A DNA stretch of 64,000 bases from assembly GCA_001417715.1 (NCBI GenBank), contig BBRT01000032.1, positions 1-64,000 of the forward strand. The letters are read 5' to 3'. A program made the position numbers and the translations under genes. Below, piece by piece: positions 40,890-52,305 of the stretch (positions are counted from its first letter, which is position 1; each line of letters begins with the position of its first letter). The notes below the pieces were generated by a model. The model worked only from the letters and a program-made list of their open reading frames with translations. It did not search any database and was not told the origin of the DNA. This DNA comes from Candidatus Symbiothrix dinenymphae (lineage in GTDB: Bacteria; Bacteroidota; Bacteroidia; Bacteroidales; Azobacteroidaceae).

Positions 40890-42467
40890 TTATTTTTTCA
40901 CGATTTTGACTGTTTTTCCGCCTGACTGCAACAGATAAATGCCGTTGGGATAGCCCGAAAGGTCTATGCGGCTTTCATTTGTGCGGAGGAGCAATTCGCC
41001 GTTCAAAGTATGTAGAGAAGTGGCATAGTGCGTCTCTACGCCATTGTCGATATAAACCACACCTGTCGTGGGGTTGGGATAAACCGGTAAGAGCGTAGTG
41101 TGCCCACCGGATTCAATAGCGGTTGATGATGATGATGGATAGAAATCTTTCCAGACCGGAGCCGATTTGTAGAGAGGTTCTTTGCCCGACGGCGCGTTCA
41201 GCGTGCACGACCTGAGCGTAACCGAGCCAAACACATTACTTGGCACCTTTATCGGGCTATTCCACTTGACAGTCACACTTTTCAAACTGTCGCAATTGGA
41301 AAAAGCAAAACTTCCAATAGTTGCTACGCTTTCGGGAATGGTGACAGATGTAAGTCCGGAGCAAGCCCAAAACGCAGCATCTCCAATACTTCCCACACCG
41401 TTCGGAATAGTAAGTGCAGTTAAGGCATCACAACTATGAAAGGCACGGTCTGCAATGCTTTCCAATCTACTGTTTGCTGTAAATATAACGGAAACAAGAC
41501 TGTCACAACCGGCAAAAGCGGCATATCCAATACTTGTCACCTCATCCGGAACGTAAAGCGCTGTCTCGGCATTTTTAACAGGACAGGTAAGCAATATGAG
41601 TGCACCATCCGATAGCTTTTTGTAAAGCACCCCATCCACAGACTTAAAGGACGGATTATCGGGGTCAACATCAATTTTACGAAGACTGTGACAACCTTCA
41701 AAAGCACCCGCTCCAATACTCTCCACTGTTTTTGGGATAAAAATGGTGTCCAGCATACTACAGCCCCGAAAAGCACCCGCTCCAATACTGCGCAACGTTG
41801 GATTAGAAGGGATAGGATTAAGATTAATCCCGGTAATACTATCGCAATTGGCAAAAGCCTCTCGCAGTATTGCTGTTACGCCTCCTTCTCGCAGCTGACC
41901 CGGTCCGGGGGGGGACGGATTGAGTTTGTATTTATACAATAGTTTGCCAATGAAAATGTCTGCCGGTGCCTCACTATACCACGGCGTACCACTGAAAGCC
42001 TCACGCCCTACATTTGTTACATTTTGCAAATAAGTGTCAACAGTAGCGTCATAGAGAAAACTCTCGCAACCGGCAAAAGCCCAATCGCCAATAGTTGTTA
42101 GGCTATATTCAGGATAACCCGGAAAGGTAATAGAAGCAAGATTGATGCACCCTTGAAACGCAAAGTCACTGATAGAGGTAATGTTGCGACTCATTCTTAC
42201 AGTGGTAATAGTCGTTCTGTACTCATGCCATGGCACCGCTTTGGCTTCACCCCACTTTTTCATCGCCGTAGGAGTAGCGGTTGTATTCCCGAGTGTGTCC
42301 TTGACTTTAATGTCAAGGGTCGTGTGGTCAGCACTAAGTGTGGCAGTAAGAGAGTACATCTTATCGCGATTAGTAGCGTCAGAAGCACCAATGTTCCAAG
42401 TCGTTTGTGCAAAGCCGTTTACCGCAAGCAACAAACATACCACCGGAAATAAAAAAGTCCTTTTCAT
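40890..42467 (-). CDS. BspA-type leucine-rich-repeat surface protein with T9SS sorting domain
   Basis: 525 residues from the ATG at 42467 (MKRTFLFPVVCLLLAVNGFAQ, signal peptide). About ten LRR_5 units of the form AFxxCxxLxSVxIPxxVxxIGxxAF lie between residues 90 and 420. The C-terminal about 75 residues are a type A T9SS sorting domain (VYPNPTTGVVYIDN, YPNGIYLLQSGGKTVKIVKK), so the protein should be exported through the type IX system and anchored on the surface. A 28-bp inverted repeat inside the sorting domain encodes about residues 477-486 (ETHYATSLHT). Promoter TAAATTTG at 42504-42511 (- strand). Confidence 0.87.
   Translation of the reverse strand: MKRTFLFPVVCLLLAVNGFAQTTWNIGASDATNRDKMYSLTATLSADHTTLDIKVKDTLGNTTATPTAMKKWGEAKAVPWHEYRTTITTVRMSRNITSISDFAFQGCINLASITFPGYPEYSLTTIGDWAFAGCESFLYDATVDTYLQNVTNVGREAFSGTPWYSEAPADIFIGKLLYKYKLNPSPPGPGQLREGGVTAILREAFANCDSITGINLNPIPSNPTLRSIGAGAFRGCSMLDTIFIPKTVESIGAGAFEGCHSLRKIDVDPDNPSFKSVDGVLYKKLSDGALILLTCPVKNAETALYVPDEVTSIGYAAFAGCDSLVSVIFTANSRLESIADRAFHSCDALTALTIPNGVGSIGDAAFWACSGLTSVTIPESVATIGSFAFSNCDSLKSVTVKWNSPIKVPSNVFGSVTLRSCTLNAPSGKEPLYKSAPVWKDFYPSSSSTAIESGGHTTLLPVYPNPTTGVVYIDNGVETHYATSLHTLNGELLLRTNESRIDLSGYPNGIYLLQSGGKTVKIVKK
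41012..41039. repeat. 28-bp inverted repeat inside the T9SS sorting domain
   Basis: GTAGAGA (41012-41018) and TCTCTAC (41033-41039) frame an imperfect AGTGGCATAGTGCG centre. The outer and inner sequence matches the palindrome at 53886-53909, a different repeat family from the 32-bp arm. Confidence 0.65.
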
Positions 42468-42503
42468 ATATATATTTTTAATTTTTTTTTGAAAATTCGG
42501 GTG

Positions 42504-42511
42504 CAAATTTA
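42504..42511 (-). promoter_or_regulatory. TAAATTTG -7 box of the leucine-rich-repeat gene
   Basis: CAAATTTA on the + strand, 37 bases before the start at 42467. Confidence 0.45.
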
Positions 42512-42591
42512 CGGAATATTTTTCAATTGCGCAACAAAAAAAAAATTATTGGGTGCCCGCCTCGCAAATCGCTTTAATGCGGTTGCCCTGA

Positions 42592-42618
42592 ATAACTCAT
42601 AACTTTTTCGTACCTTTG
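42592..42618 (+). promoter_or_regulatory. Promoter of serA: CATAACT-type heptamers plus TACCTTTG box
   Basis: AATAACTCATAACTTTTTCG runs into TACCTTTG at 42611-42618. It matches the frr promoter at 25 of 27 positions or so. The start codon is 25 bases downstream. Confidence 0.6.
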
Positions 42619-42642
42619 CGCAAAATTTTTAAAACTGATTAT

Positions 42643-43563
42643 ATGAAGATTTTGATTGCTACAGACAAGCCTTTTGCGGCGGAAGCGGTGAAGGGCATTC
42701 GGGAGGTGGTTGACGGTGCCGGTATGCAGTTGGTGCTGTTGGAAAAGTATACGGAGAAAAAGCAGTTGCTGGATGCCGTGCGCGATGCGAACGCGATTAT
42801 TATTCGCAGCGACATCATTGATGCGGAAGTGTTGGATGCTGCCACGCAGTTGAAAATCGTGGTGCGTGCCGGTGCGGGCTACGACAATGTGGATTTGGCT
42901 GCTGCCACTGCCCACAATGTGGTGGTGATGAACACGCCCGGACAAAATTCCAATGCCGTGGCGGAACTGGCGCTCGGCTTGATGGTTTATGCCGTGCGCA
43001 ATGCCTACGATGGCAGTTCGGGTAGTGAATTGCAGGGCAAGAAGTTAGGCATCCACGCTTATGGCAATGTAGGGCGCAATGTGGCACGCATCGCCAAAGG
43101 TTTCGGCATGGAAATCTACGCCTACGATGCCTTCTGTCCCAAAGAAGTGATTGAAAACGATGGCGTGAAAGCTCTTTCGTCAGCCGACGAACTCTACGCC
43201 ACCTGCCAATTCATATCGCTGCACATCCCGGCAACGGCTGAAACAAAAAATTCCATCAACGCCACCCTGCTCGACAAGATGCCCAAAGGCGCAGTTTTGG
43301 TCAACACGGCACGCAAAGAAGTCATCAACGAAGCCGACTTGCTCAAAGTGCTGGAAGCTCGCCCCGACTTCAAATACGTGACGGACATCATGCCGGACAA
43401 AGACGCCGAAGTAAAAGAAAAATTTGCCAAACGCTACTTCTCCACCCCGAAAAAGATGGGTGCACAGACCGCAGAAGCCAACAACAACGCAGGCGTAGCG
43501 GCAGCAAAGCAAATTGTAGATTTTCTCGTAAACGGCAACACCAAATTTCAGGTGAATAAATAA
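42643..43563 (+). CDS. serA: D-3-phosphoglycerate dehydrogenase
   Basis: 306 residues from the ATG at 42643 (MKILIATDKPFAAEAVKGI). A D-isomer 2-hydroxyacid dehydrogenase: nucleotide-binding GIHAYGNVGRNVARIAKGFG, catalytic region VVRAGAGYDNVD, NTARKEVINEADL. The C-terminal FSTPKKMGAQTAEANNNAG is the Bacteroidota SerA signature. It oxidises 3-phosphoglycerate in serine synthesis. There is no ACT domain, as usual for this short type. serC is not adjacent. It is followed 20 bases later by the SUMF1-type gene. Confidence 0.93.
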   Translation: MKILIATDKPFAAEAVKGIREVVDGAGMQLVLLEKYTEKKQLLDAVRDANAIIIRSDIIDAEVLDAATQLKIVVRAGAGYDNVDLAAATAHNVVVMNTPGQNSNAVAELALGLMVYAVRNAYDGSSGSELQGKKLGIHAYGNVGRNVARIAKGFGMEIYAYDAFCPKEVIENDGVKALSSADELYATCQFISLHIPATAETKNSINATLLDKMPKGAVLVNTARKEVINEADLLKVLEARPDFKYVTDIMPDKDAEVKEKFAKRYFSTPKKMGAQTAEANNNAGVAAAKQIVDFLVNGNTKFQVNK

Positions 43564-43583
43564 CGGAGTACTTTGCAGGCTCA

Positions 43584-44300
43584 ATGAAAAAAAAATTAGC
43601 ATTATTTATCTCCCTCACCCCATTTACGATGGGGTTTGGGCAAACGGATGCGGTGGAAGAAGATTCGCTGTTTAATCCGCTTGACATCGAAATGGTGTTT
43701 GTGGAGGGCAGCAAAAAGTTTGCTGTTGCCGACTTTTACATTGGCAAATATGAGGTGACACAGGAGCAGTGGGAGGCTGTGATGGGCGACAATCCTGCCG
43801 ATTATCGGGTCTATGACCACCCTGTGGAGCATGTCAGTTGGAACGATGTGAAGCAATTTCTCACTAAATTGAACACCCTGACAGGTAAAGAATATCGCCT
43901 CCCCACGGAAAAGGAATGGGCTTATGCCGCAAGTGGCGGCAAAAAAGACGAGCCGTATAAGTTTGCCGGTGGCGATAAAATCGGTGCAGTGGGGTGGTAT
44001 GCCGGCAACTCCGAACAGGCAACGCATCCTGTTGGAACGAAACAGCCCAATTCGTTGGGCATTTATGACATGACCGGCAATGTGTGGGAGTGGTGTGAAG
44101 ATTGCTATGATGCGAAGTGTATGTATCGCGTGTTTCGCGGCGGCAGTTGGCTCAATCCGCCGGAGTTTTGCGAAATACCCTATCGCAACTACTTCATGCC
44201 GGTGTATCGCTACGACTATCTGGGAGTCCGCGTGGTTTATTCAGCCCCAAAAGCCATCCCAAAAGCAGCCACTCCCAAAACAGCCACTCCAAAAAAGTAG
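43584..44300 (+). CDS. SUMF1/EgtB/PvdO-type protein (formylglycine-generating-enzyme fold)
   Basis: 238 residues with a signal peptide (FTMGFGQ). The fold's landmarks are FYIGKYEVTQEQWEAVMG, HVSWNDVKQFL, YRLPTEKEWAYAASGG, GNVWEWCEDCYD and RVFRGGSW. True formylglycine-generating enzymes use two cysteines near the C-terminal core; here only CEIPYRN is found after GGSW, so sulfatase activation is doubtful and a structural or binding role in the envelope is as likely. The C-terminus is a short AATPKTATPKK tail. It probably shares the serA promoter. Confidence 0.75.
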   Translation: MKKKLALFISLTPFTMGFGQTDAVEEDSLFNPLDIEMVFVEGSKKFAVADFYIGKYEVTQEQWEAVMGDNPADYRVYDHPVEHVSWNDVKQFLTKLNTLTGKEYRLPTEKEWAYAASGGKKDEPYKFAGGDKIGAVGWYAGNSEQATHPVGTKQPNSLGIYDMTGNVWEWCEDCYDAKCMYRVFRGGSWLNPPEFCEIPYRNYFMPVYRYDYLGVRVVYSAPKAIPKAATPKTATPKK

Positions 44301-44379
44301 TGCACCCTGCCTCTTCCCTACACTTATATCCAAACTAAAACGCAGTCGTGGTCGGAAGATTGGTTGGATGTTGAATTTA

Positions 44380-44394
44380 CGGGCTGAAAGCCCG
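44380..44394. terminator. Possible hairpin terminator after the serA operon
   Basis: CGGGCT (44380-44385), loop GAA, AGCCCG (44389-44394). There is no T-run directly after it; the MITE follows. It may be another small repeat rather than a terminator. Confidence 0.35.
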
Positions 44395-44396
44395 AA

Positions 44397-44497
44397 CCGT
44401 CATTGCGGGCTTGACCCGCAATCCCCTGTTCTACATCGCTCTGTAGCACAACATTCAGCTCATTTTCAGGGGATTGCGGGTCAAGCCCGCAATGACG
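44397..44497. mobile_element. Second MITE-like element, opposite orientation
   Basis: Arms 44397-44428 and 44467-44498 are inverted copies (31 of 32). The 38-bp core is about 85% identical to the reverse complement of the core at 5959-5996. No clear target duplication is seen here. Confidence 0.85.
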
Positions 44498-44577
44498 ATA
44501 ATAACGAAATTAACAAACATTAACATATTGAAGTGTTAAAGTTTAGAAAATCTATTGTCAATTCAAAAAACATTCCT

Positions 44578-44585
44578 TACCTTTG
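44578..44585 (+). promoter_or_regulatory. TACCTTTG -7 box of the susCD locus
   Basis: TACCTTTG at 44578-44585, 61 bases before the susC start at 44647. Confidence 0.55.
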
Positions 44586-44646
44586 CCGCCGAATTGTCAT
44601 AGTGGCAGTTCACAACAAATTTTGTTAAACATTAAAAATAAAATTT

Positions 44647-47600
44647 ATGAAAGAAAAGTTCAAATGTAAGAAGTTTGCAAACTTTGCAAAAACTTTGCTT
44701 CTAAGCAGCATTCTCTTGGGGGGGGGGGGGCGCAAAGCATTCGCGCTGAGGCACCGCAGGAGGCGCCGCAAGTTACAAATGCTTCGGCACGGACAAAGAC
44801 CGTTACCGGTTTCGTGTACGATGAAACCGGAGATGGAGTCCCCGGTTCCACCATCACCATCAAAGGGAGCTCTCGTGGAGTAGTAACCGACTTGGATGGT
44901 TCATTCAAAATAGACGTTTCGCCGACGGATGTTTTGGAAGTTTCTTTTTTGGGGTATGACACCTACACTGTGACGGTGGGCGACAAGGCGAGTTTTGTGA
45001 TTCCGCTCAAGCCCAAGTCGAATGAATTGGATGAAGTGACCATTGTTGCTTTCGGCAAGCAGAAGAAGGAAAGCGTGATTTCTGCCATTACCACCATCAA
45101 CACCAAAGATTTGAAGGTGCCGAGCAGCAACCTCTCCACAGCACTTGCAGGGCGTGTGGCAGGTATGGTTTCCTATCAAACGAGTGGTGAGCCGGGGCAG
45201 GACGATGCCAGCTTCTTCGTGCGCGGCGTTACTTCGCTCACTTATGCCAGCGGACCGCTTATCCTGATTGACGGCGTGGAAATGTCATCGGCAGACCTTT
45301 CGCGGATGCAGCCCGATGATATTGCCAGTTTCTCCATCATGAAAGATGCTACAGCAACGGCTTTGTATGGTGCTCGCGGTGCCAATGGCGTCATTCTTAT
45401 CACCACCAAGGAAGGAAAGGAAGGCGCAACTACCATAACATTCAGAACAGAGACTTCCATATCCGAGCCGACCTTTAAAGTTAAATTTGCCGACCCTATC
45501 ACTTATATGCGATTGAACAACGAGGCGGTCTTGACGAGAGATCCAAGAGGCTATGTGCCCTACTCGCAGGAAAAGATTGACAACACCATGGATCCGAACA
45601 GGAATCAATACATGTATCCTGCCAATGACTGGTATGACATGCTGATGGAAGACCATACCGTTAATTACCGCACTAATCTGAATGTGAGTGGTGGCGGCAA
45701 GGTAGCCAGATACTATGTGGCGGCTACCTACAATCAGGACAATGGAAATCTGAAAATGGACAAACAGAATAACTTTAACAACAACATTGACCTCAAAAAA
45801 TACCAGTTGCGTTCGAATGTCAATATCAATCTGACTAAAACCACAGAAGCCATTGTGCGTTTGTCAGGTACTTTTGACGATTATCAGGGACCCTTGGACG
45901 GAGGCGATGCGCTGTACAATAAAATAGTAAGGGCAGACCCCGTGTCGTTTGCCCCCAAATATGCACCGGACGAATTAAACTCTTATGTGCAACATATTTT
46001 ATTTGGCAATGCTGACGTCGGCAATCATATCAATCCGTATGCCGATATGGTAAAGGGGTATAAAGAATACAACAGGTCAAAAATGATGGCGCAGTTCGAA
46101 TTAAAACAAAATTTGGACTTTGTTACTCCCGGGTTGGCGATAAGAGCCTTGTACTCAACCAATCGGTATTCACTCCATGAGATAAAAAGAGAATACAAGC
46201 CGTATTATTACGACATAGTTGCTTATGACAAATCCACAGACAAGTATATCTTGAGACATTTAAATACTGCTGCAGGGGCGTCTGAAGAATTTTTAGGTTA
46301 TACAGAAGAGCCCAGGGTAATCCAGACCACCAATTACACTGAAGCGGCTGTAAATTATGACCGTACATTTGCAGATAAACATGCTGTCAGCGGTTTGTTG
46401 GTGTTTACCATGCGGAATTATTCGGAAGCCAATGCCGTATCTTTAATCTCATCTTTGCCTCACAGAAATATCGGTTTTTCGGGTAGAGCTACTTATGCCT
46501 TTGACAGTCGGTATTTTACAGAATTTAATTTCGGATACAACGGTTCGGAAAGATTTGCCAAGGAAGAACGGTTTGGATTTTTCCCTTCCGCCGGATTGGG
46601 CTGGATCATATCCAATGAAGGTTTTTGGTCGAATAGTTTGGAACTTGAGAGAATAATACCCAAATTGAAATTTAAAGCCACTTATGGATTAGTTGGAAAC
46701 GACGCCATCGGAAATGTAACCGACAGATTCTTTTATTTATCGGATGTGAGAATTGGCAGCCTTTCCGGTAGGAGTTATAATTTTGGATATAATTTTGACC
46801 AAACGAAGTATGGTACCACTATAGACAAATATCCAAATGATAAGATTACATGGGAAACAGCCAAGAAGATGAATTTGGGGATTGAGATGAATCTGTTTGG
46901 CAAATTGGAATTTATGGCTGATTATTATACCGAGAATCGATCAGGCATCTTGTTAGACAGAGCGTATGTGCCTGCAAGCATGGGATTTATGTTCACACCT
47001 CAGGCAAACCTTGGTAAGGCAGATGGAAGCGGAATAGATTTTTCCGTTGATTATGAGCACAGTTTCAATAAGGATTTCTGGCTCACCGGCAGGGTGAATT
47101 TCACTTATGCCACCACCAAATTTACCGAATACGAGGAAATTGATTATTCCGATACCCCTTGGAAGTCCATGATAGGACAACCCGTTTCACAGAAATTCGG
47201 GTATGTGGCAGAACGGTTATTTGTTGACGATTACGAAGTTCTCAATTCGCCTTCTCAAAACTTCAACGATACCCGTCCGCTTATGGGCGGTGACATCAAA
47301 TACAAAGACCTTGACGGCGATGGTCAAATTACCGAATTGGACATGGTGCCCATCGGATTTCCATCCGAACCTCAAATCATATACGGGTTTGGATTATCGT
47401 CCGGATATAAAGGACTGGACTTCTCATTTTTCTTCCAAGGGTTAGGACAACGTTCTTTCTGGATTGACGCGGCAACAACCGCTCCTTTTCTGGATACAGA
47501 CGACAACAGTGCGACTATATCCAAAAACGCCCTGTTGCAGGCTTATGCAGATAACCACTGGTCGGAAGACAACCGGAATTTGTTTGCGCTATGGCCCCGC

Positions 47601-47873
47601 CTTTCCGACCAAAGAGTAGAAAACAATGTACAGACAAGTACATGGTTTATGCGGGATGGCAGTTTCCTGCGCCTGAAATCGGCAGAATTGGGATACACCA
47701 TACCGGAACGCATTACCAATAAAATCAAAATGAAAGCGTTCCGCGTTTATGTTAGTGGAACCAATCTGCTCACTTTCAGCCACTTTAAATTGTGGGATCC
47801 GGAAATGGCCGGTAATGGCTTGGGGTATCCACTGCAAAGAGTTTATAATCTTGGTTTACAATTCACTTTTTAA
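44647..47873 (+). CDS. susC: SusC/RagA TonB-linked outer-membrane transporter, frame broken at a poly-G tract
   Basis: The start codon at 44647 opens a signal peptide (KTLLLSSILLGG). A run of 13 Gs follows (44718-44730), after which the original frame soon fails. The true mature sequence continues in another frame from AQSIRAEAPQEAP, through the carboxypeptidase-like domain (VTGFVYDETGDGVPGSTITI), the plug (VPSSNLSTALAGRVAGM, GVILITTKEGKEG) and the beta-barrel to YNLGLQFTF at 47873. With 11 or 14 Gs the gene would be whole (about 1075 residues). It imports oligosaccharides or peptides with SusD, powered by TonB. Either the locus is phase-variable and captured OFF, or the homopolymer is misread. 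Confidence 0.88.
44718..44730. repeat. Poly-G tract (13 G) in the susC signal peptide
   Basis: Thirteen Gs immediately after the hydrophobic core codons. Gain of one or loss of two Gs restores the susC frame. Confidence 0.9.
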
Positions 47874-47884
47874 AATTACATAAT

Positions 47885-49828
47885 ATGAAAAAGTTAGTAT
47901 ATTCTTTATTTTTTATGATTTTTTGTTGTTCATGCGATAGTTATTTGGACATTGTGCCGGATAATGTAGCAACAATTGATTATCTTTTTCGCGACAGGGC
48001 CGGTGCCGAGCAATATCTTACCACCCTCTACTCTTACCAGCCATACATTGGTGATCCGGCTTCTGATCCCGGACTGATGGGGGGAGACGATACATGGTCG
48101 TATATAGACCAAGTAGGGCTTAGGGATTTAGGAGATATGGCCTGTTTCAATCTCAAACGGTCACAAAATATCAATTCGCCCTTGGTGAATTGGTGGGAAG
48201 GGCTGAATCAGGGGAGAAGTACATTCAGATTACTCCGAGATTGCAATATTTTCCTTGAAAATCTGGATAAGGTAGGCCCGGATTTAAAGGAAGCCGAAAA
48301 AGAACGTTGGAGAGCTGAAGCGAAATTTTTAAAAGCCTATTATCATTACTATGCGTTGCGCATGTATGGGCCTATCCCTTTGGTTAAAGAAAACTTACCG
48401 ATAGATGCCGAGATAGCAGAAACAAGAGTATATCGGGATAAATTTGACGATTGTATAGATTATATTGTACAGTTGATAGACGAAGCCGTACCCAATCTTC
48501 CACTGGTTATTACTGACGTTTCCAGTGAATTGAGACGAATCACGCAACCGATAGCATTGGCTATCAAAGCGGAACTATTGGTGACGGCAGCGAGTCCTCT
48601 GTTCAATCACAATCCGGATTATGAACAATTTAAAGACAACAGAGGCGTCTATCTTTTTGAAAGCAAATTAAGTAAAAAAGAGAAGTGGGAACGTGCCGCA
48701 ATTGCCTGCAAAAATGCCATTGATACGGCAGAATTAACGCAGCAAATTGAATTGTACGATTTTTCTAAATCAGCTTACTACGCGAACTATGCCGGGCTTT
48801 CAGATACCAGTAAATGGGTGATGACATTACGTACCGTTGTTACAGACCGATGGAATAGTGAAATCATCTGGGGAACTCGCAACAATTGTTCTTATTGGAC
48901 ATCTCCTAAATTTTTAACGGCTCAAGCAGGAATATCTGCGGAACCTCGCATTGCTCCCACGATGCGCATGGTAGAATTGTTTTACAGTAATAATGGCGTA
49001 CCTATCGAAGAAGACAAGTTTTATGACTATACCAATCGTTTTAAGGCAGAACCGGCTCCCCCCGATCAGCACTTATTTATGATTACAAATGGTATTCGCC
49101 CAATCGCCAAAATTAATATGCATCGGGAACTAAGATTTTATGCTAATTTGGGATTTGACGGAGGTTATTGGGTAGGGAGTGGTAGAAATTTGGATGGTGA
49201 TGCCACTCCGACGTCTTCGGCTGCTTGGCCGCTGTATATGTTGCAAGGCGAGGCGTCCGGCAATTCTGCGGGAGGAATCAGATATTCCGTTACCGGATAT
49301 ATCATCAAGAAATTATCGCATAGCGAAGATCAGTACAATGCGGCAAATACCGATCATGTTCGAACAGTATCATCTTTTCCCATCATACGTTTGGCTGATT
49401 TGTATTTATTGTATGCCGAAGCGTTGAACGAAAGTGTGGATAATCCTACCCCGGCGGTTTATGAATATGTGGATTTGGTAAGGGCCAGGGCAAAATTGAA
49501 AGGTGTGGTGGAAAGTTGGACAGACTACTCAACCAACCCCGGCAAACCCAACACTCAAAGCGGTATGCGTGACATCATCAGACAAGAACGCATGATTGAA
49601 CTTGCTTTTGAAGGGAAACGCTTTTGGGATATTCGACGCTGGTTACTTTCCGAAACATGGTTGAACAAACCTATCAGGGGATGGAATACACTTGGTGCAG
49701 TTCCTGATGATTATTACCATGTGACGACACTGAGTCAATTGAAGTTCAACAAAAGGGAGTATCTATGGCCTATCCGTCTGGGAGAATTGTTGAGAAATCC
49801 AAACTTGGAACAAAACCCGGGATGGTAG
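47885..49828 (+). CDS. susD: SusD/RagB nutrient-binding lipoprotein
   Basis: 647 residues with a lipoprotein signal (MIFCCSC, Cys17) and the SusD pattern DSYLDIVPDN, AEAKFLKAYYHYYALRMYG and LADLYLLYAEALNE, ending GKRFWDIRRWLL and LNPNLEQNPGW-like (RNPNLEQNPGW). It forms the lid over SusC at the cell surface. It follows susC by 11 bases. The substrate cannot be told; no glycoside hydrolase lies in the window part of the locus. Confidence 0.93.
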   Translation: MKKLVYSLFFMIFCCSCDSYLDIVPDNVATIDYLFRDRAGAEQYLTTLYSYQPYIGDPASDPGLMGGDDTWSYIDQVGLRDLGDMACFNLKRSQNINSPLVNWWEGLNQGRSTFRLLRDCNIFLENLDKVGPDLKEAEKERWRAEAKFLKAYYHYYALRMYGPIPLVKENLPIDAEIAETRVYRDKFDDCIDYIVQLIDEAVPNLPLVITDVSSELRRITQPIALAIKAELLVTAASPLFNHNPDYEQFKDNRGVYLFESKLSKKEKWERAAIACKNAIDTAELTQQIELYDFSKSAYYANYAGLSDTSKWVMTLRTVVTDRWNSEIIWGTRNNCSYWTSPKFLTAQAGISAEPRIAPTMRMVELFYSNNGVPIEEDKFYDYTNRFKAEPAPPDQHLFMITNGIRPIAKINMHRELRFYANLGFDGGYWVGSGRNLDGDATPTSSAAWPLYMLQGEASGNSAGGIRYSVTGYIIKKLSHSEDQYNAANTDHVRTVSSFPIIRLADLYLLYAEALNESVDNPTPAVYEYVDLVRARAKLKGVVESWTDYSTNPGKPNTQSGMRDIIRQERMIELAFEGKRFWDIRRWLLSETWLNKPIRGWNTLGAVPDDYYHVTTLSQLKFNKREYLWPIRLGELLRNPNLEQNPGW

Positions 49829-49829
49829 A

Positions 49830-49880
49830 TTGAGTTATGAGTTATGAGTTATGAGTTAAAAATTAAAAATTAAAAGTTAT
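49830..49880. repeat. GAGTTAT heptamers and A/T-rich repeats between susD and the next lipoprotein
   Basis: Three to four GAGTTAT units are followed by AAAAATT units. The last GTTATG overlaps a possible start codon at 49879. Confidence 0.7.
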
Positions 49881-49902
49881 GAATAATTTAAAATTAAAAG
49901 AT

Positions 49903-51138
49903 ATGAATAATATCTGTATCAACGCGATCCGTCGGTGGTCGCTCAGAATTTGTTCTGTTTCACTTGTGGGGCTGTTCGCTTGTTCGGAAGCACCTATCGG
50001 GCAATACCCGACAGACAGCACTCCGCCCAAACCTGTTAGCAACCCCCAAGTGGTCAATTTCCCCGGAGGCGCATCAATTACTTACGACCTGCCGGATGAA
50101 ACAGATTTGCTGTATGTCAAAGCAAGTTTTGTGCTTCCGAATGGAACAAAGCAGGATATCAAAGTATCCTCCTTTTCTAACACCCTTACAGTTAATGGAT
50201 TTGCCCGCTCGCAGGAATACAAGCTGCAACTCATAGCCGTTGATAGAAGTCAAAATGAATCCGTTCCGGTTGAGGTACCCATTCATCCTGAAGACGCCAA
50301 CATATATGATGTTCGTCAAAGTGTTAATTATACCGTTGCACGAGGTGGCTTTAATGTGAACTGGGAAAACGCTAATAACGAAGACATCACGGTTTTTGTC
50401 CTTAAGAAAAATGAAGGAACGGGAAATTTCAGTCTTATAGAGTCTTTTTACTCTGCGGAAAAAAATGTGCAGAAATCTGTTCGTGGATTGGATGCCGTGT
50501 TGACAACTTTTGCCGTATTTGCCCGAGACAAGTATAATAATAACTCCGATACAGTGCAATTTCAGTTAGAGCCTCTGTTCGAACAGTTTATCGACCATAG
50601 CACTTTTGCCGGTATGCCTAAATTACCGGCTCATACAGAGCATGCTACTTGGTGTGGTCCCATGAGCGTTTTGTGGGATGATGTTTTAGTTGCAGGAGCC
50701 GTAGCCAGAACGGTATATTACATTTCACCCGGTACAGTCCCTGCTTATTTTACTATCGATTTAGGCATCAAAGTCAAACTATCCAGATTCAAATTGTTTG
50801 GTCGGGAGGATTATTATTTTAGACTTCATAATCCGCGTGATTTTTACATACTGGGTACCAATGATTTGTCGGTTGCACAAGATCCGGCAAGTACAGATGC
50901 TCAATGGGGCGATACTTTGCTCAATTGCATTTCCCACCGTCCGTCAGGATTGTCGTTTGACGTTGTGGCAACTCCGGAAGATTATGCTTATGCCTCCGCA
51001 GGAGAGGATTTTGAATTTCCCGAAGCAGCCCCGGCTGTACGTTATATCCGAATTAGAGTCAGAGGCAACGGCTCATGGAGTGGCACCAACGGAATGCATC
51101 TTGCTGAATTGAGATTTTGGGGTGAACCCATCAATTGA
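49903..51138 (+). CDS. SusCD-associated surface lipoprotein (DUF4959/DUF5126/DUF5000-type)
   Basis: 411 residues from the ATG at 49903 (an ATG at 49879 adds eight residues). Lipobox LFAC. Ig-like DUF4959 domain (PPKPVSNPQVVNFPGGASIT), a middle domain, then a C-terminal discoidin-like DUF5000 (YFTIDLGIKVKLSRFKLFGR, AVRYIRIRVRGNGSW, HLAELRFWGEP). Such proteins follow SusD in many utilisation loci and are thought to bind glycans on the surface. Confidence 0.85.
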   Translation: MNNICINAIRRWSLRICSVSLVGLFACSEAPIGQYPTDSTPPKPVSNPQVVNFPGGASITYDLPDETDLLYVKASFVLPNGTKQDIKVSSFSNTLTVNGFARSQEYKLQLIAVDRSQNESVPVEVPIHPEDANIYDVRQSVNYTVARGGFNVNWENANNEDITVFVLKKNEGTGNFSLIESFYSAEKNVQKSVRGLDAVLTTFAVFARDKYNNNSDTVQFQLEPLFEQFIDHSTFAGMPKLPAHTEHATWCGPMSVLWDDVLVAGAVARTVYYISPGTVPAYFTIDLGIKVKLSRFKLFGREDYYFRLHNPRDFYILGTNDLSVAQDPASTDAQWGDTLLNCISHRPSGLSFDVVATPEDYAYASAGEDFEFPEAAPAVRYIRIRVRGNGSWSGTNGMHLAELRFWGEPIN

Positions 51139-51177: not shown

Positions 51178-52305
51178 ATGAAAAATTTTGGTTTCTTTAT
51201 TTGTATGATTCTCTTGGCCGGTTGCGCCGAGATGAACGATAAGCACGATGAATTTCTTGCCAGAGGCGAGACGGTTTACATCGGGAAAGTAGATTCGGTA
51301 ATAGCCTGTCCGGGAAACGACAGTTTGCTGCTGAAGTATTATATCAGCGATCCGCGCGCAAAAACCTTGACGGTCTATTGGGGTTTCAATAATGCTTTCT
51401 CAAAAACATTTTCTATTCCGCCCCATCAAGCCACAGAGCCTTTGGAAGTATCTTTTGGTGCCGCCGATGGTATTACTGAAGAAAATTATACTTTTCAGTT
51501 GATATCTTCCGATCTTTCCGGAAATAAATCCATGGTATTTGAAACATCGGCAAGTGTATATGGCAGTATTTATAATGACTCGCGGTTGAATAGACGCGTT
51601 TTGGGAGCAGACTTCGGCGTAGCACCGGGAGACATTACGGTTAATTTAGCCCCTGCATTGACAAACGACGAAGCAGGGATGGAATTTTATTATACGGATA
51701 GAGGTAATAATCCTGTGACGGCATATTTTCCGCATCCCGAGACTTCCCTGTCTTTAGCGGATGTGGATATTTCTAAAGTTGTTCAATACAAAACAGTATA
51801 TCGACCTGAACCAACAGCAATTGATTCTTTCTCTGCCAATATTGTCCCCATGGATATGAAATTTATTCTTTCGCTTAATAAACCGGTAACAATACAATCC
51901 GGTGATCTTAATGGTGGCACCGGCAATGCGGCTCAACGAGAATACAATGCTGTTGATGGGAATTATGCTCTAACTGCGGGACGATGGGTTTCACTGAACA
52001 ATACCAACCTCCATTATATGGAAATAGATTTGCAAGGAGAATATCCTGTCAATAGTTTCAAAACATGGAATGGAACCCCTGATGGCTATGGGGGAGTTGG
52101 GGGTACTCAATATGTGCTTGACAGATTAATTTTGAAGGCTTGGGATGGTAGTGCTTGGATAACTGTTCATGATTCCGGCACCGGCAATACGAATCCGACG
52201 TATGGGGCTGATTTCACTACTGTCACAACGACTAAGGTCAGGTTCGAAACATATACCATGACGAGATTATTCGAAATACAAGTGTATTATATTGTCACAC
52301 ATTAA
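51178..52305 (+). CDS. DUF4998-type surface lipoprotein of the susCD locus
   Basis: 375 residues. Signal with lipobox LAGC; a DUF4998 domain follows (LARGETVYIGKVDSVIACPG, LLKYYISDPRAKTLTVYW), then a C-terminal discoidin-like part (NAVDGNYALTAGRWVS, HYMEIDLQGEYPVNSFKTW, FEIQVYY). It probably binds carbohydrate together with the preceding lipoprotein. It is in one operon with susC and susD. Confidence 0.83.
   Translation: MKNFGFFICMILLAGCAEMNDKHDEFLARGETVYIGKVDSVIACPGNDSLLLKYYISDPRAKTLTVYWGFNNAFSKTFSIPPHQATEPLEVSFGAADGITEENYTFQLISSDLSGNKSMVFETSASVYGSIYNDSRLNRRVLGADFGVAPGDITVNLAPALTNDEAGMEFYYTDRGNNPVTAYFPHPETSLSLADVDISKVVQYKTVYRPEPTAIDSFSANIVPMDMKFILSLNKPVTIQSGDLNGGTGNAAQREYNAVDGNYALTAGRWVSLNNTNLHYMEIDLQGEYPVNSFKTWNGTPDGYGGVGGTQYVLDRLILKAWDGSAWITVHDSGTGNTNPTYGADFTTVTTTKVRFETYTMTRLFEIQVYYIVTH

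Follow-up and report, generated by a model that had tools for sequence, protein, structure and literature searches.

A poly-G tract in the signal peptide of SusC receptors as a likely slippage switch repeated over the receptor family of Candidatus Symbiothrix dinenymphae

A poly-G tract in the signal-peptide coding sequence of an otherwise intact susC gene, located in a 64,000-nt stretch of Candidatus Symbiothrix dinenymphae DNA (the whole of which is hereafter the window), recurs before other susC genes of the same genome and, depending on its length, keeps or breaks the reading frame of the receptor. The best explanation is ON/OFF phase variation by poly-G slippage, repeated over the receptor family and residing on an exchangeable 5′ block; this explanation is likely, with the reservation that no variation in length has been demonstrated within a single population. 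The initial annotation had described this single gene as likely phase-variable, which remains the best-supported reading under the same reservation, and the arrangement is larger than that annotation stated, since it is family-wide and lies on a 5′ block that has probably been exchanged.

The poly-G tract and the susC reading frame

The tract (44718–44730, + strand) consists of exactly 13 G and covers codons 24–28 of susC, its first G lying 71 nt downstream of the A of the start codon (ATG, 44647). The start codon and signal-peptide coding sequence that precede it (MKEKFKCKKFANFAKTLLLSSIL, 44647–44717, +) are closely shared among tract-bearing genes, and the Kyte–Doolittle hydropathy peak, TLLLSSILLG, is immediately 5′ of the Gly run and AQS; this places the tract after the hydrophobic core and before the probable cleavage region, the cleavage site being inferred without a predictor. 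With 13 G the open reading frame (ORF) stops after 78 amino acids, and tracts of 9, 10, 12, 15 and 16 G yield 32, 77, 33, 34 and 79 amino acids, respectively, whereas 11, 14 and 17 G yield 1074, 1075 and 1076. Past the tract, the SusC frame runs uninterrupted over 1046 codons, beginning at 44733 and closed by the stop codon at 47871–47873 (susC body, 44733–47873, +), and at 13 G this frame is lost, the listed SusC-frame ORF beginning at GTG 44814 without a signal peptide. The product is a full-length match to TIGR04056 (positions 1–981 of 981; 987.8 bits versus a cut-off of 368.25), the body contains the Plug and CarbopepD_reg_2 domains, and Plug and CarboxypepD_reg domains together with an adjoining susD agree with assignment to the SusC/RagA TonB-dependent transporters.

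No 13-G run occurs in any of 100 dinucleotide shuffles of the window, and an order-2 model predicts about 0.0001 runs of ≥13 G per window. The locus shows two features expected of a simple-sequence-repeat (SSR) contingency locus, namely a homopolymer far beyond chance within an ORF that changes the frame, and an intact downstream gene, under selection, that is regained by tract length alone. The claims of the initial annotation on this gene (a 13-G tract at this position, its placement between hydrophobic core and cleavage region, a wrong frame at 13 G with about 1075 residues at 11 or 14 G, and an otherwise intact susC) all held: the count was confirmed, the placement is supported by hydropathy with the cleavage site inferred, and the body carries no further lesion and is under purifying selection.

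The tract is followed by the linker and the start of the CarboxypepD_reg domain (44731–44870, +), where, judging from identity to the orthologue, the exchangeable 5′ block ends. Domain matches identify the partner gene susD (SusD_RagB; 47885–49828, +) and, in the same locus, genes for a DUF4959/DUF5126/DUF5000 protein (49879–51138, +) and a protein with DUF4998 and F5/8-type C domains (51178–52305, +). Upstream of susC, the promoter and 5′UTR (44500–44646, +) form part of the shared 5′ block, with the boundary set by alignment to the orthologue, and contain TACCTTTG at 44578–44585, an instance of TAnnTTTG, the Bacteroidota −7 promoter motif. Just upstream of this block, the repeat search found a perfect 31-nt inverted repeat (44398–44497, no strand assigned) with 38 nt between its arms; it holds CATTGCGGGCTTGACCCGCAATCCCC, and similar letters were seen by eye elsewhere in this genome (G000) and in a congener (G005).

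In the mechanism proposed, slipped-strand mispairing at the poly-G run during replication would change tract length; at 11, 14, 17 G and so on, the signal peptide would be in frame with SusC (ON), and other lengths would cause an early translation stop with a leader fragment of 33–79 residues (OFF). Because the tract lies within the signal peptide, OFF frames would give no product carrying both signal and receptor, and the glycine added in ON frames would probably be tolerated. With 18 of 30 susC genes and two TIG/NHL genes switched, the cells of a population would differ in their combination of receptors, and the switch would be carried on a conserved 5′ block of ~370 bp exchanged between paralogues. 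Slippage in vivo, loss of the receptor in OFF cells, the mechanism of exchange and the benefit (glycan choice or phage avoidance) are inferred from sequence alone.

Poly-G tracts across the genome and the susC family

The window's own genome (3.52 Mb, 346 contigs) contains 61 G-runs of ≥10 preceded by a non-G letter, versus ~0.8 expected, and one more run begins at a contig end (C319). In the 381 kb of stretches picked for tracts, the distribution of run lengths is bimodal, with 44 runs of 6, four of 7, one of 8–9 and 58 of ≥10. For runs of ≥10 G, this genome ranks first among 294 genomes sampled from its order (Bacteroidales, inferred; ≥80% complete), the next having 18 and 165 of the 294 having at least one; outside this sample, the congeners G005 (77% complete) and G023 carry 60 and 31 runs. 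Lost mismatch repair as the cause of this abundance is rejected: mutS1 and mutL models exceed their cut-offs in all 14 genomes of the genus that were examined (mutL being partial in G005), both genes are open and without stops in G000 and, since they are present, no general repair defect explains instability.

By script, 25 of the 61 runs lie in a signal-peptide context, most of them ending in ...AGCAGCATTCTCTT before the run; C35 and C319 were added by their susC bodies to give 27, some of which are probably contig-end halves of one gene. About half of the tracts fall outside this context and many are intergenic, so that poly-G builds up also at places where its length cannot affect a reading frame. 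TIGR04056 matches over the cut-off number 31 and correspond to 30 genes, one being split; a same-strand upstream tract is present in 18 of the 30, at 63–87 nt from the match in 17 genes and at 343 nt in C271, and one signal-peptide sequence is common to the tract-bearing genes where readable. The check proposed in the initial annotation, a search for poly-G in the other susC genes of the genome, was thus strongly positive, with 17 further cases. Among the 12 tract-less genes, five have a readable 5′ end without a G-run (C208:14079, C216:20813, C208:84394, C96:28602 and C50:8181), two have interrupted runs (C327:2110 and C96:18281) and five start at or near a contig end (C247:84209, C229, C333, C323 and C138); interrupted tracts read G8-A-G3 before C327:2110 and G6-A-GG before C96:21217. 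GGG makes up only 11% of Gly codons in the 18 susC bodies, which suggests that the run is kept as DNA rather than as glycine, and the longest G-run in these bodies is 6.

Two TIG/NHL protein genes, each located before a tract-free susC gene, also have the tract, and the switch may thus sit on the first gene of an operon. In these two cases (C50:12773 and C96:33160; L020, L027, L142, L143), the same signal peptide and tract are followed by a same-strand, tract-free susC; the C50:12773 protein has TIG and NHL domains, and the C96:33160 protein resembles it, a judgement made by likeness without a domain scan.

As assembled, two of 12 readable genes of this genome are ON, no different from a random frame (1/3; P = 0.18). 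The count omits the contig-end halves C10, C35, C216:127, C248, C286, C293, C312, C319 and C335, C271 (with ~270 nt of extra sequence after the tract), C281 (off, body split), the fragments C13:6256 (off) and C41:26227 (on), and the TIG/NHL genes C50:12773 and C96:33160, neither of which is in frame from the ATG at −71; in-frame starts exist at the ATG at −60 for C96:33160 and at −13 for C50:12773. Tracts lie within 200 nt of a contig end in 16 of 62 cases, versus ~2.4 expected, a breakage that could fit length heterogeneity, shared repeats or poor sequencing alike, and noisy letters adjoin several tracts. Exact counts and ON/OFF calls may be wrong because the assembly is error-prone at tracts.

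The tract in related genomes and selection on susC

The signal-peptide-linked pattern matches only G000 among 97 genomes, and a DNA query with the 5′ block (scoring at most ~20 candidates per genome) gives long matches only in G000 and G005 among 38 genomes of the genus, with short, weak ones in seven others. In G005 a homologous arrangement is found at the same susC site, with diverged letters and runs of 8–13, and 10 of 15 readable genes (n = 8–12) are ON (P = 0.0085 versus 1/3). These 15 come from an incomplete susC list and represent at least 15 readable genes; L207 and L226 (one flank missing), the tract-poor or interrupted L148, L213 and L215, and tracts inside bodies (L101, L222) were omitted, L095, whose body is also split, was counted off, and L210, with two frames tied, was counted ON. 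By contrast, 27 of 27 susC genes from eight other congeners, these being the top-scoring loci and not all, lack any G-run longer than 4 within 160 nt downstream of their first in-frame ATG. The window susC was also compared with its nine closest relatives in other congeners, and no run of ≥5 G lies in the stretch examined; one of the nine is truncated, and the one from G005 has the same signal peptide in a form without the tract.

In a set of 71 loci drawn from named genomes, L241 alone carries ≥9 consecutive G before susC; in L296, another locus of the set, 9 consecutive G or C stand elsewhere in the stretch. L241 (BNTU01000055.1, 'Bacteroidia bacterium MS499-82') is 96.3% identical to the window over 44500–49370, and its tract, of 14 G, is also out of frame. 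The susC bodies of the two are 97.4% identical in nucleotides, with dN 0.0119, dS 0.0796 and dN/dS 0.15, and the window body gives a dN/dS of 0.14 to the paralogue C208; all three genes are out of frame as assembled. The susC body is under purifying selection, though both orthologues read out of frame. The difference of 13 versus 14 G between them is not a clean slippage event, since the two 5′ blocks look to be of different paralogue types. Since 17 further susC genes of this genome, as well as two other genomes, carry a tract at this very position, the tract itself is no error.

The nearest named relatives of the window's organism come from termites. MS499-41 is a single-cell genome from the gut of Reticulitermes speratus, obtained by MDA in gel capsules and MiSeq sequencing (PMC12887300), an amplification method described separately (PMC9579161); MS499-82 is inferred from its name to belong to the same series.

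An exchangeable 5′ block

Identity between the window and L241 is only ~78–79% from 44491 to 44870, rising to 93% near 44870, and drops further, to 63 matching columns out of 100, where the tract and a 21-nt indel lie; past 44870 it is 93–100% in the blocks compared as far as 46070, and 90% in a gapped block at 46170. This 5′ divergence exceeds what a dS of 0.08 allows. Upstream of the block the window and L241 do not align, the neighbour being infB in L241 (read from translation) versus a gene with an FGE-sulfatase domain in the window. The G000 infB stretch (L315, C280:71600-84753) is 96.7% identical and then continues into other genes, with no susC in the 13-kb stretch retrieved, which reaches the contig end. 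Relocation of the whole nutrient locus or an amplification chimera could each account for the different infB neighbourhood; 6–8% of reads are chimeric in the gel-capsule MDA method (PMC9579161), which makes such chimeras a possible source of the junction.

Over 13 members (12 of G000 plus MS499-82), mean identity is 78% in the 130 nt before the tract, 78% in the linkers and 62% in the bodies. How similar two bodies are is no clear guide to the similarity of their 5′ ends (Mantel r 0.16, p 0.06) or of their linkers (r −0.07, p 0.68), and 5′ and linker similarities agree weakly (r 0.25, p 0.02). The trees conflict: the body tree joins the window and MS499-82 at 100, a pair rejected by the 5′ tree (AU p 0.010), and itself rejects C152 with C165 (p 4e-39) and C247a with C247b (p 3e-8), which are mutually closest at the 5′ end. 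Support is low for most branches of the 5′ tree, a long-branch warning applies to the body tree, and the tested pairs were picked after the identities had been seen. Given this conflict, the ~370-bp block, comprising promoter, 5′UTR, signal peptide, tract and linker, has probably been exchanged between paralogues, by a mechanism that is inferred. A bolder reading, as easily doubted as accepted at present, is that of a portable switch cassette, in which recombination would move the 5′ module among susC genes and loci would change place behind it.

Poly-G tracts outside susC

Methyltransferases of the FkbM type, formyltransferases, hexapeptide transferases and glycosyltransferase-like genes are kinds often phase-variable. 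G tracts lie inside or at the start of such genes, among them an FkbM methyltransferase, a formyltransferase and a hexapeptide transferase, in G000 (C129, L029-L031) and in G005 (L088, L090, L102, L104, L119), where the genes, some of them glycosyltransferase-like, were named by eye; these may represent a wider set of switching surface genes, although only as a possibility.

Other runs, outside the signal-peptide context, stand beside a AACTTGCTGATAATCAGCAAGTT-type palindrome, in G000 (L014, L015, L017, L019, L028, L049, L062) and likewise in G005 (L091, L103, L121). They measure 11–23 G, the palindromes having been judged by eye and some copies being imperfect, and in L015, L017 and L028 an opposite-strand gene with a signal-like start lies ~75–150 nt away; an action of such runs on transcription or the 5′UTR is conceivable. 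In the fetched stretches of G005, 21 of 37 long G-runs are followed by TAC (L087-L106, L117-L121, L148, L158, L165, L207-L226), a triplet that does not rank with the six most frequent followers of short G-runs; these TAC-ended runs belong partly to the homologous susC site, and the same ending also occurs in unrelated genes.

Alternative explanations

The first alternative is a homopolymer miscount, in which the tract would be real and constant, in frame at 11 or 14 G, and the assembly wrong. In its favor are the breakage of contigs at tracts (16/62), the noisy letters beside them, and the contig ends C312 and C286, which share a near-identical flank (132 of 136 letters) and give 16 and 15 G. 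Nevertheless, a miscount does not explain why long tracts recur before 18 susC genes and are present as well in a congener and in a genome that was sequenced independently, and the 10 of 15 genes in frame in G005 show that the counts there are not random; this explanation is unlikely. The sequencing error named as an alternative in the initial annotation is accordingly rejected, as a pure artefact, for the existence of the tract, and still stands for each exact count.

Transcriptional or ribosomal slippage, by which each length would yield some full-length SusC and the tract would act as a dimmer or simply be tolerated, is likewise improbable. It is favored by the 10 of 12 readable genes of G000 that are out of frame with tested bodies constrained, but purifying selection is equally expected if ON and OFF cells alternate.

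DNA inversion, as in the susC shufflon loci of Bacteroides fragilis, with the tract incidental, is very unlikely, with the proviso that recombinase genes were not covered. The 5′ block and the bodies are reshuffled between paralogues and a perfect inverted repeat lies just upstream of the block; however, the 31-nt repeat encloses 38 nt and not the promoter motif, and the 9-kb region holds three further inverted repeats, which measure 17–23 nt and are 83–88% complementary. None of the four pairs detected at 41000–50000, the only part searched (seed 11, minimum 14), is a long, well-matched inverted repeat enclosing a promoter or 5′ ends. For want of a suitable repeat pair in this part, promoter inversion is not supported at the window locus.

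A decaying pseudogene, suggested by a susC out of frame as assembled, is very unlikely and is rejected on dN/dS (0.15 against the orthologue, 0.14 against C208, with each of the three genes out of frame as assembled), the 1046 codons also lacking another lesion.

Relation to known systems and significance

Poly-G slippage switching, as preferred here, has its closest counterpart in HmbR and HpuA of Neisseria meningitidis, where a G tract lies within the ORF of an outer-membrane nutrient-receptor gene, every third length is ON and interrupted tracts occur (PMC3786947). There, however, two genes are concerned versus 18 paralogues here, and in the present case the tract is in a conserved signal peptide, the receptor is a SusC/SusD system of Bacteroidota, and no experiment has been made. 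Meningococcal isolates show 59% of hmbR and 65% of hpuA tracts ON (PMC3786947), and by analogy mixed ON/OFF states would be expected of contingency loci. Phase-variable SusC/SusD receptors are known in Bacteroidales from the invertase (Tsr0667) shufflon of Bacteroides fragilis (PMC4747536), which relies on site-specific inversion, unlike the homopolymer slippage and 5′-block exchange proposed here. Within the same order, slipped-strand variation was proposed by the authors for a polysaccharide locus of Bacteroides fragilis (PMC3090145), where one extra C in a 4-C run causes a frameshift in an acetyltransferase-related gene; that case involves four bases, one gene and no nutrient receptor, in contrast to runs of 10–18 in a receptor family. 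The SSR phasomes of Campylobacter and Neisseria (PMC6321876, PMC5953494) also have many repeat tracts per genome, in another phylum, whereas here one transporter family with one signal-peptide sequence dominates. The Opa proteins of Neisseria are a multigene surface family with a repeat in the signal-peptide coding region, a pentamer instead of poly-G.

The openly licensed literature searched contained no report of SSR switching of SusC, nor of a poly-G switch shared by the SusC family in Bacteroidota; on this basis, and absence being weak evidence, the kind of switch is known (poly-G contingency loci) and the setting, SusC in Bacteroidota, appears new.

SusC/SusD receptors set which glycans a Bacteroidota cell eats, and they are exposed surface targets. 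On the bolder reading of a portable cassette, slippage and cassette exchange would be two layers jointly generating receptor repertoires in the symbiont. If the proposed slippage switch is real, consensus assemblies of such genomes would misannotate working transporters as frameshifted pseudogenes, the range of poly-G contingency loci would widen to include uptake receptors of the glycan type in a group probably associated with termites, and stochastic switching across the whole family would let cells hedge their bets on diet and surface.
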